IMG/VR virus record: IMGVR_UViG_3300032288_001826
Location: 1 to 32,443 of that record
DNA length: 32,443 nucleotides
Origin: a virus
Direction: 5' to 3' (one strand)
Positions 4,741-30,271 of this stretch are shown in pieces. The notes beneath the pieces were generated by a model. It searched no databases and had not been told where the DNA came from. It was given only the letters and a program-made list of their open reading frames with translations. Position 1 is the stretch's first letter, and the number at the start of each line of letters is the position of its first letter. Both the position numbers and the translations under genes were made by a program.

Positions 4741-7451
4741 CCGACGTCGTCGTTAAGTTCGTCGCGGACACTCAGGGGCTACTCCCAGCGGTTCAAATCA
4801 TGAAAACGCTCGGACAGTTATCGGATGAGCAAGCCGCGGAAATCGATCGAATAAACACAAAGCAAAAGGAAAGCATTTCGATATTAAACCAGAGCGCGAC
4901 GGCGGCTGGCAAACTGGAGGGCGAGATTAAGGACCTGGGAAAAACGCTCGGCGACGGAGTTTTTCAAAAGGCGCCCGGAGTTCTCGATCCAAAGGAGGGA
5001 GCTCCGATTCCTGAGACGATTAAGAAAACGAAAACGTTAAAGCAAGAGTTAAAGGAGTTAAAGGCCCAGATCGCGAGCGGCCAACTGGAGGGAGCGGAAC
5101 TACAAAAGGCGGCCGCCAGAGCTGGAGAACTGGCCGACGCTATCGAGGACGCAAGCCGTCAGGTTAAAGCGTTCGCGGGTAATCGTTTGGAAAATAATTT
5201 AAAGGCAATTGGAGAGGGAGTTCAGCTGGCGACGGCTGGGTTTGCTGCTTACCAGTCGATTGTTACTTTGACGGGTTCGAAAAACGAGGAGCTACAAAAA
5301 ACGATGGTAAGGGTGCAAGCGGCGGCGACGTTATTACAGTCGGCGACGACGATAACGAACCTCCTCCAAAAGGAGAGCGCGTTAATCCAGGGTATATTAA
5401 CCGGGCGTTTGTACGGGTTAGACAAAGCTCAGCGGTTAGTCGCGATCGGGGCTCGCGTTATGGGCGTCGAGACGGCAACGGCGACGGCGATAATGAGCGG
5501 AGGTTTGACTGTTATTTTAAGCCTCGTCGCGGCGGCTGCTCTGTTTGCTATGGGCGAGGAGGAGCTGACGGACTCGATTACAAAAACGAGTTCAGCGATG
5601 GACGACCAGAAACGAGCGGCTGGCGATTTAGCGGACAAGCTCGCGGAGGTTGACGCGGACCTGGCTGTTTTGAGCGGATCCATGAGTCAACGCGAGGCGG
5701 ATATTTTAAAGGCTGATATAAAAAATAAAAAGGAACGAATAAGCGCCGAGGACGATTACCAAAAGCTCAAAGAGAAGGCGGTAATGGACGGAATTAAACA
5801 AGTTTATAAAGACGAAACCGAAGCCCAGGAAATGTTTAAAAAACTGGAAATGGACAACGGTTACGTTCGCTTAAAGGTTAAAGCGGATATGGACTCTCAG
5901 GAGTACATGGCGGCGCAAATGGTAAATAAAAAGCTTTTTAAATTAGCTGGGGAGCACATAAAATATATGGCCGACCTTGAAACGTTAGGCAACAAAGAGA
6001 AGGAAATAATAAACAAAAACCACGACACGCGCGAAAGCCAGGCCCGTAAGGCGGCAAATGAAAAAGCTCGTCAGGCTAAACAGCAAGCGGATAAACAAGC
6101 GATGGACGACGCGCGAGCACTGGCCGCGTGGATGGCTGCGGAGTCAGTGGCAAGGGCTAAGCGTGAGCTGGCGATTTATACCGACGAGGACCTCGAGCCA
6201 AAACTCAAAGCGGAGGAGGATTATCACAAAGCCCTAATGGCGCAAATCGATAACAACTTTAAGGCGCAAGGAAAAACAAACAGCGAACAACACCAGACAG
6301 CACTCGCGGAGGAGACCGACAGATATAACGACCGGATAAACAACCTCCGGACGAATTATTGGGATAAGGTAATGAGCGAGACGGAGCGCAAGGCCCAGGA
6401 GCAAAGGAAACTCGAGGACCGTTTGTTTAAGTTAAACATGGACGAGCAAGCCGAGAATTTCGCCTCGATACAACTCGCCCAGCTCCAGCTCGAAAAGGAT
6501 AACTATGAAGGACGCAAGGAGCTGTTAATGGAATGGCTGCGGACGAAAAACAAAGAGACTTATTTACAATTCGAGAACGAGGGTAAACTCGGTTCGGAGG
6601 CTTACAAGTTAGCGCTGGCCCAGAACCAGGCGGAGTTCGAGGCTCAGATGAAATCGCTCGACGACACTATGAAGGCGAGGCGTAAAGAATACCAGGACGC
6701 CGCGATCGGTTCGGCGATGGAAATAATTAACGCGGTTAACACGATAACGGCAAGTAACCGTAAGGCTGAGACAGACGCCCAGCTGGAGGACCTTAACACC
6801 AGACGCGAGGCGGCACTGAGTAACGCGAACCTAACCGAGAGCCAAAAAATGGCTATCGAAAAGCGTTACCGGAATGAGGAAAAAGCGATTAAGCGCCAGG
6901 CGTGGGAGGCTGACAAACAAGCCGCCGTCGTTATGGCTGTAATAAATACAGCCGTCGCGGTTACTAAGGCACTGCCTAACGTTTTACAAGCCGTCGCGGC
7001 TGGCGTGGCTGGAGCTGCCCAGGTGGCGGTTATTGCAAGCCAAAAGCCGCCGAAGTTTGCAAAGGGAACCGAGTTCGTGGAAGGTCCGGGAACTGGAACG
7101 AGTGACTCGATTCATGCGATGTTATCGCGTGGAGAGCGCGTGGTTCCGGCTAAGATTAACGAGGAGTATTTCGAGGCGCTCAGTGCGATACAAAACCGCA
7201 AGGTCGAGCCAGGGCTGGCGAACAATATCATGGAGAGCCTCGCGTCTGGTTCGTACCGTTTGGCCGCGTTTAAAGGTTCTCGCGGCGTGGGCTCAGCAAA
7301 CCAGATGGATTACGAGCGTCTCGCTCAAATAGTAAAGCAAGGCCGCACGAACGTCGAAATATCGATGGACGAAAAGGGTTTTAAAAAATACATGATTAAC
7401 GAGCTGAGTCGGACTCAGTACGTCAATAAAAAACTAAGGATAAAAACATGA
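4737..7451 (+). CDS. Tail tape measure protein
   Basis: The 904-residue protein is by far the longest of the tail module and sets tail length (about 135 nm if 0.15 nm per residue). It starts MTDVVVKFVADTQGLLPAVQ and has long alanine-, lysine- and glutamate-rich coiled coils (about 45-155, 290-480, 490-720). A hydrophobic stretch lies at about 160-275 and a second near 730-770 rich in Ala and Val. Near the C-terminus is the FAKGTEFVEGPGTGTSDSI segment followed by MLSRGERVVP, a hallmark of many phage tape measures. It overlaps the upstream frame and the downstream gene by ATGA. Confidence 0.93.
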   Translation: MTDVVVKFVADTQGLLPAVQIMKTLGQLSDEQAAEIDRINTKQKESISILNQSATAAGKLEGEIKDLGKTLGDGVFQKAPGVLDPKEGAPIPETIKKTKTLKQELKELKAQIASGQLEGAELQKAAARAGELADAIEDASRQVKAFAGNRLENNLKAIGEGVQLATAGFAAYQSIVTLTGSKNEELQKTMVRVQAAATLLQSATTITNLLQKESALIQGILTGRLYGLDKAQRLVAIGARVMGVETATATAIMSGGLTVILSLVAAAALFAMGEEELTDSITKTSSAMDDQKRAAGDLADKLAEVDADLAVLSGSMSQREADILKADIKNKKERISAEDDYQKLKEKAVMDGIKQVYKDETEAQEMFKKLEMDNGYVRLKVKADMDSQEYMAAQMVNKKLFKLAGEHIKYMADLETLGNKEKEIINKNHDTRESQARKAANEKARQAKQQADKQAMDDARALAAWMAAESVARAKRELAIYTDEDLEPKLKAEEDYHKALMAQIDNNFKAQGKTNSEQHQTALAEETDRYNDRINNLRTNYWDKVMSETERKAQEQRKLEDRLFKLNMDEQAENFASIQLAQLQLEKDNYEGRKELLMEWLRTKNKETYLQFENEGKLGSEAYKLALAQNQAEFEAQMKSLDDTMKARRKEYQDAAIGSAMEIINAVNTITASNRKAETDAQLEDLNTRREAALSNANLTESQKMAIEKRYRNEEKAIKRQAWEADKQAAVVMAVINTAVAVTKALPNVLQAVAAGVAGAAQVAVIASQKPPKFAKGTEFVEGPGTGTSDSIHAMLSRGERVVPAKINEEYFEALSAIQNRKVEPGLANNIMESLASGSYRLAAFKGSRGVGSANQMDYERLAQIVKQGRTNVEISMDEKGFKKYMINELSRTQYVNKKLRIKT

Positions 7452-28805: not shown

Positions 28806-29018
28806 ATGGAAAAAACAGCACTCCAGCAATTAATTCACAAGCTATTCACAAGCTATGACTCAGGCGACGCGATCCCGGTTAACGAGGTCGCCGAAATCGC
28901 CGAGCGTTTACTCGACAAGGAACGCCTCGAGATCATGCAAGCCTATGCCCACGGCAAGCTCGACAACGACGATATTTCCGCCGAGGTTTATTTTAACCGT
29001 AAATTTAACAAGCTATGA
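28806..29018 (+). CDS. Hypothetical protein (70 aa)
   Basis: Begins MEKTALQQLIHKLFTSYDSG, helical and acidic, ends FNRKFNKL. Its 5' part includes a perfect 11-base tandem duplication of ATTCACAAGCT (28833-28843 and 28844-28854). Because 11 is not a multiple of three, the two copies encode different residues (IHKL, FTSY). Overlaps the next gene by ATGA. Confidence 0.6.
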   Translation: MEKTALQQLIHKLFTSYDSGDAIPVNEVAEIAERLLDKERLEIMQAYAHGKLDNDDISAEVYFNRKFNKL

Positions 29019-29443
29019 GGATTTATAACGATTATATGATTCTCGGAAAGGCTCGTTTTTACGAGCTGTTTCCGCTCGAGCAACCAGAAACGCTCACGTC
29101 CTATAAAGCAATAAAAAACGTCTGGGAGTTATTCCTGGGCCCAAACGTGGACCGCAAGCTGTTAACTACACGTAACCAATCGATCGTTAACATAAAAAAA
29201 GTATTTACGTTCTGGATTACGTGTAAGTTTCCGGACCTCAAACAGCACGAAATCGGCGAAATAATTGGAGCACCAAGGAGCCGAATTCCTTTTTACCTTA
29301 AAACGGTTTACAACGATTTAACGGTAATACACTACGCGCCAAAGGTAATTGACCAGCTCCAGACGTTAAACTATTATTTAAGCCTCCAGCAAGACCGAGA
29401 GGTCCTCGGATCGCTTTGGGTTAAACCGATAAATGGCTTATAA
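29015..29443 (+). CDS. HTH DNA-binding protein resembling DnaA domain IV
   Basis: 142 residues. The central stretch has an R-rich start (LLTTRNQSIVNIKKVFTFWI) followed by LKQHEIGEIIG and PRSRIPFYLKTVYNDL, matching the order of the DnaA box-binding helix-turn-helix (helix, IG turn, recognition helix). No ATPase domain is present. It may bind origin or promoter sites. It is the last gene before the island at 29444. Confident on HTH, less so on the family. Confidence 0.6.
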   Translation: MRIYNDYMILGKARFYELFPLEQPETLTSYKAIKNVWELFLGPNVDRKLLTTRNQSIVNIKKVFTFWITCKFPDLKQHEIGEIIGAPRSRIPFYLKTVYNDLTVIHYAPKVIDQLQTLNYYLSLQQDREVLGSLWVKPINGL

Positions 29444-29830
29444 CGTAAAAATATTGGCGCAGTTGCGCTTTAAAACCACAAAACTATGATAACAAGAGAA
29501 CAGTATTTAGAAGCATTAGACATCGTTGAAACGTATCACCAGCAATTGCGCCAATATAATGTTGGGCGCAGTTTAACTCCAATTGCAGAATGGGATAAAT
29601 TCGATAGATGCAGTAAAAGATTGCAAAATGTACTTTATGATATAAGACAAGGTACACCAGATTGGATTGGTTATAAAGAAGAATTTATAGAAAACATACA
29701 AATTCATAAAATGAGAAAGTTTCCAAATTGTGGCAAAAAGTCATTGGATGAGTTTATTGAATTGAGGGGCTACTAAATTGCGCCCAACTAATCGCTAACC
29801 GCAACAGTTTCGCTTATACAACCAACGGCG
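29444..29830. mobile_element. AT-richer one-gene island framed by related inverted repeats
   Basis: The island has different codon use from its neighbours and is surrounded by copies of a TTGG(G)CGCA motif. ATATTGGCGCAGTTGC at 29451-29466 is the reverse complement, with one mismatch, of 29542-29557. A third related copy, AATTGCGCCCAAC, lies at 29776-29788, and a fourth, GTTGGGCGCAGTTT, at 29561-29574. This looks like an acquired cassette or miniature element. No transposase or recombinase is inside it. Limits are approximate. Confidence 0.5.
29486..29776 (+). CDS. Small protein with RNA polymerase alpha-CTD-like helix-hairpin-helix end (96 aa)
   Basis: Begins MITREQYLEALDIVETYHQQ. The C-terminus has MRKFPNCGKKSLDEFIELRG (about 75-94), which closely matches the LxxIPNFGKKSLxE helix of the RNA polymerase alpha C-terminal domain, a helix-hairpin-helix that contacts DNA or protein. 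Codons are AT-rich (AGA, GAA, AAA, ATA) unlike the phage genes around it. It is likely a host-derived or cassette gene. The function is unknown. It may bind DNA or mimic the alpha CTD. Confidence 0.65.
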   Translation: MITREQYLEALDIVETYHQQLRQYNVGRSLTPIAEWDKFDRCSKRLQNVLYDIRQGTPDWIGYKEEFIENIQIHKMRKFPNCGKKSLDEFIELRGY

Positions 29831-29911
29831 GGACCCACCTTGTTTTTATTGACTTTTTTAAGGAGCTCCGGCTGCTTTTAACATTTTTTAACATTTTTAT
29901 TTTTGAAAACG

Positions 29912-29943
29912 TTTGCAAAATCAAAAATTAACCCCGTATTTTG
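29912..29943 (+). promoter_or_regulatory. Candidate promoter (TTTG, 21-base spacer, TATTTTG)
   Basis: TTTG at 29912-29915 and TATTTTG at 29937-29943 are separated by 21 bases, which fits the Bacteroidota -33/-7 layout apart from one missing base in the -7 box. Transcription would start near 29950, just upstream of the ATG at 29969. The region from 29777 to 29968 holds no gene, apart from the right-hand island repeat. It also has two TTTTTTAACA-like elements before the promoter. Confidence 0.6.
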
Positions 29944-29968: not shown

Positions 29969-30271
29969 ATGAAAACTACCCTAATCGGAGAGGAGCTTTA
30001 CAAGGTAATCGCTCAGGCTCAAACCGCGTACAACTACGCAAACGTTAACTTTTTCGGACCGCCCAAACAGTCCGGTTCCTGGTATACTTTCGAAAAACAC
30101 TTTAACACCTACGACGAGGCCGTCGAGTACCTGGCCGACCGGATCATGTTAAACTATCAAAACAGCTCAGAAACCGAACAAACCTACCTCGACCGCATGG
30201 ACCAGCTCGAGCGTTTCGGTTCCGTTGAGTTTAACGGCGTGCTCGCCTCGATTGACGTTATCGACCTATGA
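29969..30271 (+). CDS. Hypothetical early protein (100 aa)
   Basis: I chose the ATG at 29969. An in-frame ATG at 29903 would add 22 residues, but it lies upstream of the promoter boxes at 29912-29943. The product starts MKTTLIGEELYKVIAQAQTA, is acidic and helical with a FFGPPKQSGSWYTFEKHF segment, and ends DVIDL. No known family. First gene of the recombination-gene transcript. Its stop overlaps the next start as ATGA. Confidence 0.65.
   Translation: MKTTLIGEELYKVIAQAQTAYNYANVNFFGPPKQSGSWYTFEKHFNTYDEAVEYLADRIMLNYQNSSETEQTYLDRMDQLERFGSVEFNGVLASIDVIDL

Follow-up and report, generated by a model that had tools for sequence, protein, structure and literature searches.

An attC-like site that may supply the start codon of a small phage gene

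How did a small gene of foreign composition come to lie among inverted repeats in a phage genome, and do these repeats mark a mobile unit? The locus lies at 29444-29830 of the window, by which we mean the whole stretch of DNA analysed (IMG/VR virus record IMGVR_UViG_3300032288_001826, 32,443 nt). A sequence-only reading of this region had proposed an acquired one-gene island, either a mobile gene cassette or a miniature element that captures small host genes. Here, we compare the locus with other phage contigs, with Bacteroidota genomes and with published integron systems.

Inverted repeats around a foreign gene

The gene (29486..29776, + strand) encodes a 96-residue, small helical protein. 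Its codon fit is the worst among the 37 genes of the window, its GC content is 0.33, its GC3 is 0.28 (the median GC3 of the window genes is 0.55), and GC skew changes sign across it. By codon use, GC, GC3 and GC skew alike, the gene is foreign, in agreement with the earlier statement that its codon use is unlike that of its neighbours. The protein weakly matches the C-terminal domain of the RNA polymerase alpha subunit (PF03118, E=0.016, below the cut-off). Its predicted structure has a model pLDDT of 73, and a Foldseek search of the PDB with this model returned nothing significant, the best match being an alpha-CTD at E=1.7.

No match to the gene was found among sequenced phages and plasmids. 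Its nearest relatives are in other phages, on three metagenomic contigs (L002-L004; all viral contigs compared with the window are metagenomic) whose homologues are 62-63% identical and share the same N-terminus. Only one distant homologue was found in Bacteroidota, in one of 395 genomes. Capture of a host gene, as suggested by the sequence-only reading, is not supported by this distribution.

That reading had also placed the gene among four related motif copies, and all of its coordinates were correct. The inverted repeat formed by 29451-29466 and 29542-29557 was reproduced (complementary at 15 of 16 positions), and 29561-29575 is complementary to 29774-29788 at 14 of 15 positions. When 29380-29900 was shuffled with dinucleotide composition preserved, only one of 60 shuffles gave an inverted repeat of 15 nt with no more than one mismatch, whereas the segment itself has two that are independent of each other. 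The two inverted pairs therefore exceed chance for this segment. The core TTGGGCGCA by itself is not rare in the window; it is the paired arrangement that is. An AT-rich palindrome with 21-nt arms (86% complementary) lies farther along, at 29893-29928, before the gene at 29969, and is perhaps regulatory.

An attC site followed by a cassette body

We aligned 16 attC-like sites of other phages, excluding the window, and built a covariance model (R1) from the alignment. The model matched the window only once, at 29441-29569 on the + strand, end to end over model positions 1-132 (68.8 bits, E=2.9e-14). An independent rule-based finder chose the same place, plus one chance-like candidate on that strand. 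The match places the site in a family of attC-like sites of about 131 bp found in Bacteroidota, and because of it 29451-29466 can be assigned as L'', 29542-29557 as L', 29561 as the start of R' and 29776-29788 as the next R''. The site's own R'' box, CTTATAAC (29437..29444; compare CATAACGTAAAAAACATTGGCG in another phage attC), ends in AAC. The L'' arm ATATTGGCGCAGTTGC and the L' arm GCAATTGCGCCAATAT, the latter also coding, are paired in the model alignment, and the R' box GTTGGGCGC (29561..29569), recognised by sequence and by the model, starts with GTT and is in frame within the gene. The TAA at 29441-29443 ends the upstream gene (29015-29443) as its stop codon and at the same time belongs to the R'' box, and stop codons overlapping R'' are also seen in several phage cassettes.

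Such repeats might have arisen without any attC site, if template switching at a quasi-palindrome had made 29542-29575 from the two outer copies and left a single gene between inverted ends. As this would require, each of the outer copies is complementary to the internal one, and the phage homologues have a partly similar linker (GCAATTAAAGCCAGATAT) of their own. However, a model made from independent attC sites matches all 129 bp of the element, in which length and order of boxes are the usual ones, and the sequence GCCAATNNAATGTTGGGCGCAGTTTAA around R' agrees at 25 of 27 positions with the attC of another phage contig (L014). The covariance-model match already disfavours template switching strongly, and we consider it very improbable.

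With the attC site retained, the rest of the island reads as a cassette body, 29561..29788 (+), that runs from R' to a complementary R'' box, ATTGCGCCCAAC (29776..29788). R' and R'' agree at 11 of 12 positions. The body encodes the final 71 residues of the gene product and its stop codon, with the TAA just before R'' and 12 nt from stop codon to R'' end (11 nt in most other phage cassettes). As judged from its sequence, the island is thus best described as one integron-type unit, with the attC site (29441-29569) followed by the cassette body. The sequence-only reading had fitted GTTGGGC at 29561 to GTTRRRY and GCCCAAC at 29782 to RYYYAAC but found their arrangement non-canonical. Both box matches hold; the arrangement seemed non-canonical because the attC is the upstream element, 29441-29569, and not the stretch between the two boxes. 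Treating the motifs as one cassette (29454-29788), or as two, was dropped after the attC comparison.

The unit differs from the textbook order in that attC lies at the 5' end of the gene, with only R'' after it. The R1 scan of the whole window found no second attC downstream of the cassette, and with one site the locus falls short of a CALIN, which requires a cluster of two or more attC sites and no intI. Nor is it a complete integron, with an intI carrying the additional domain next to an array: a domain search found no phage-integrase domain (PF00589) in the phage record, nor in any of the 16 viral records searched. After the last R'' (29789 onwards in the window; also in L014, L065, L077 and L192), the next attC is missing or truncated, and at these right ends a GGCG-like stretch often lies about 10 nt beyond R''.

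Do the repeats flank other small genes, as had been proposed for checking? They do. The 15-mer TTGGGCGCAGTTTAA had 48 matches in 2.9 million viral contigs, nearly all of them chance matches in coding DNA, with the exception of L014, where the window's layout surrounds a different gene of 45 aa. Two further scans with R''-side patterns extended the set to seven IMG/VR contigs (L014, L065, L077, L178, L180, L189 and L192), in which GTTGGGCGCA ... TTGCGCCCAAC enclose different small ORFs, the TAA mostly lying exactly 11 nt before the R'' end. L077 carries a tandem array of at least four cassettes, and its boxes differ among cassettes and are complementary within each, which is the hallmark of integron cassettes. 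Polaribacter phage P12002L, one of the phages for which attC sites have been published (PMC9892861), follows this rule too. A repeat-plus-AT pattern used as a probe on 85,000 genomes gave 11 matches, all by chance, and when single attC sites were compared with phage and plasmid records by blastn, none matched.

These comparisons also bear on the miniature element, that is, a miniature inverted-repeat transposon or an invertible segment. Inverted repeats of 15-16 nt that flank a small segment, and the lack of a transposase, would suit such an element. However, the box pairs vary between cassettes while remaining complementary within each, as in integrons and unlike a single fixed terminal repeat. 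Most exact copies of the 15-mer in viral contigs are the chance matches noted above, and no target-site duplication is apparent in the sequence. This explanation is scarcely credible. The proposal of a mobile cassette that entered a phage fared better: the attC site, the cassette body and the like boxes around different genes agree with it, while the full attC, with the gene's start codon inside it, had been missed.

Start codons in attC loops

The ATG at 29486 lies between L'' and L', and its frame continues across L' and R' and on into the cassette body (MITREQYLEALDIVETYHQQLRQYN, then VGRSLTPIAEW...). The start codon and the first 25 codons (29486..29560, + strand) are placed in the attC loop and L' arm by the ORF call and by the N-terminal match to homologues: residues 1-20 match MITREQYLEALDIVETYHQQ in the phage homologues, with nucleotide identity of up to about 95% over this part.

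An in-loop ATG that opens at least 60 codons through R' is present in 11 of 23 phage sites; read in each of the two alternative frames, these ATGs gave one case. Among bacterial sites, in-loop starts of this kind were found in 3 of 83. The contrast (11/23 vs 3/83) is strong, with several of the 23 phage sites coming from the same contigs and so not being independent. In-loop ATGs of phage sites share an A-rich context and occur in L002 (a DNA methylase), L169 (three), L212 (three), L134, L189 and L108; in one L169 gene, a ProQ-like domain begins about five residues past the junction. Within 110 nt after R', there is no ATG-started ORF of more than 5 codons in the window, and none of more than 9 codons in the L002 and L169 (site 442) cassettes. 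It should also be noted that some other spanning ORFs have a later in-frame ATG.

Gene orientation differs as well. In 17 of 21 phage cases the model strand carries the longer open frame, which puts attC at the 5' end of genes, whereas in bacteria the longest cassette ORF is opposite to the phage-oriented model strand in 60 of 65, with attC at the 3' end as in ordinary integrons. The phage cassettes in this comparison are from L134, L169, L189, L210 and L212, and the bacterial ones from L245-L262. In the open-access literature we found no report of start codons in attC loops as a recurring feature. While integron cassettes in phages have already been published, a start codon and leader inside attC provisionally appears to be new.

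We propose that translation starts at the loop ATG (29486), so that attC would provide both the start codon and an N-terminal leader of 25 residues, and that the cassette, presumably without a usable start of its own, would supply the remaining 71 residues. The crossover expected from integron biology, between G and TT (29561/29562), would fall inside the gene, and recombination could thus exchange the C-terminal part while the leader stays. The tyrosine recombinase would come from the host, as the phage record encodes none. Taken as a whole, this combination of an attC-cassette unit, a loop start and an exchangeable C-terminal part is probably the correct explanation of the locus. The recurring layout suggests that phages may use attC sites to start, and perhaps to swap parts of, proteins.

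Some observations count against this explanation. There is a single attC, with none downstream of it, and the L002-L004 homologues are each one continuous gene with no attC inside, so the window attC may just have inserted into a linker that tolerates it. In L002, a weaker attC match (5359-5451) lies just after the homologue, which may also be in a cassette array. The search for a near relative lacking the island found none, and insertion was not directly observed. The upstream gene, used as a probe, found no relatives, and the exonuclease gene found relatives of only 35-42% identity, with too little synteny to show an empty site.

The lone attC, a record without integrase and a cassette with no attC after it could also belong to an ordinary integron cassette remnant, in which attC and gene entered the phage, the frame crosses attC by chance, the leader is without function and the unit is no longer mobile. 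Cassettes in phages have been reported (PMC9892861), and class 1 integrons are known to undergo accidental fusions across cassettes (PMC3375312). An accident does not readily explain why in-loop starts are so much more frequent in phage than in bacterial sites and concentrate in one frame, why the N-terminal residues match a start that the gene family conserves, or why the attC arms are still almost perfectly complementary. We regard a remnant as unlikely, though as the more serious of the alternatives considered.

Bacteroidota arrays and known systems

Model R1 has matches in 104 of 198 sampled Bacteroidota genomes, many of which have a dozen or more. In 18 array regions with 79 consecutive pairs, R' and the next R'' agree at 6.49 of 9 positions, compared to 3.32 for random pairs. 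The arms covary: over 107 bacterial sites, in an alignment that was fitted to the model and so leans towards structure, 95.8% of cells are paired and 459 carry changes on both sides, where shuffling gave a mean of 153. The 131-bp family, whose model the window fits, thus has a conserved fold with covarying arms.

An IntI-like recombinase gene lies about 1-2 kb from attC in at least four genomes (G067, G069, G203 and G062). Six recombinases from genomes with arrays (L264, L266, L267, L269, L270 and L271) align with IntI and lack the IntI-specific additional domain, which is treated as a defining trait of IntI (PMC9668308); relative to a true IntI (L263, above the TIGR02249 cut-off), the missing stretch lies between the middle and C-terminal motifs. 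All six carry an N-terminal extension. An IntI-like recombinase near arrays is likely to be the enzyme for the window attC, a candidate by adjacency, which is no proof. Bacteroidota genomes (e.g. L245-L262) possibly hold a large set of integron-like arrays that standard tools miss; the IntegronFinder 2.0 survey (PMC9024848) named only one complete integron in Bacteroidetes proper, in Salinibacter.

For the wider picture, we see the evidence as evenly balanced: Bacteroidota may have a widespread integron-like system with attC sites of about 131 bp and a recombinase without the IntI-specific domain, whose cassettes phages would use turned round, attC serving as a coding leader with a start codon and the cassette as the exchangeable rest of the protein. 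If attC can carry a start codon, the exchange of cassettes would reach beyond whole genes to parts of proteins, and phages would gain a site-specific way to recombine coding sequence. In Bacteroidota, where integrons are reported to be rare, our search suggests numerous attC arrays accompanied by a recombinase that the usual definition of IntI does not cover, and standard finders probably miss arrays of this attC family.

Several known systems resemble the locus in part. According to Qi et al. 2023 (PMC9892861), phage genomes without integrase, including that of a Polaribacter phage, carry attC sites and cassettes, and most of the phage attC sites tested there recombined with IntI1. Like those phage cassettes and CALINs, the window has attC and a cassette in a phage without integrase. 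Unlike them, it has one attC, under the two-site CALIN threshold used there, this attC comes from a fixed-length family of about 131 bp, and the gene starts in the attC loop, whereas the available text of that study describes no start codon inside attC. The Bacteroidota arrays are like sedentary chromosomal integrons in having cassettes separated by attC sites, R'/R'' complementarity within each and tyrosine recombinases near several, and differ from them in that the array-associated recombinases are without the IntI-specific additional domain. Finally, fused cassettes and ORF-11 of class 1 integrons (PMC3375312, PMC8876359) also involve translation that begins in one element and continues into or onto the following cassette, as is predicted here. 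The class 1 cases are rare fusions, usually through loss of attC, or translational coupling from attI; in the window, by contrast, attC is intact and itself carries the in-frame start codon.
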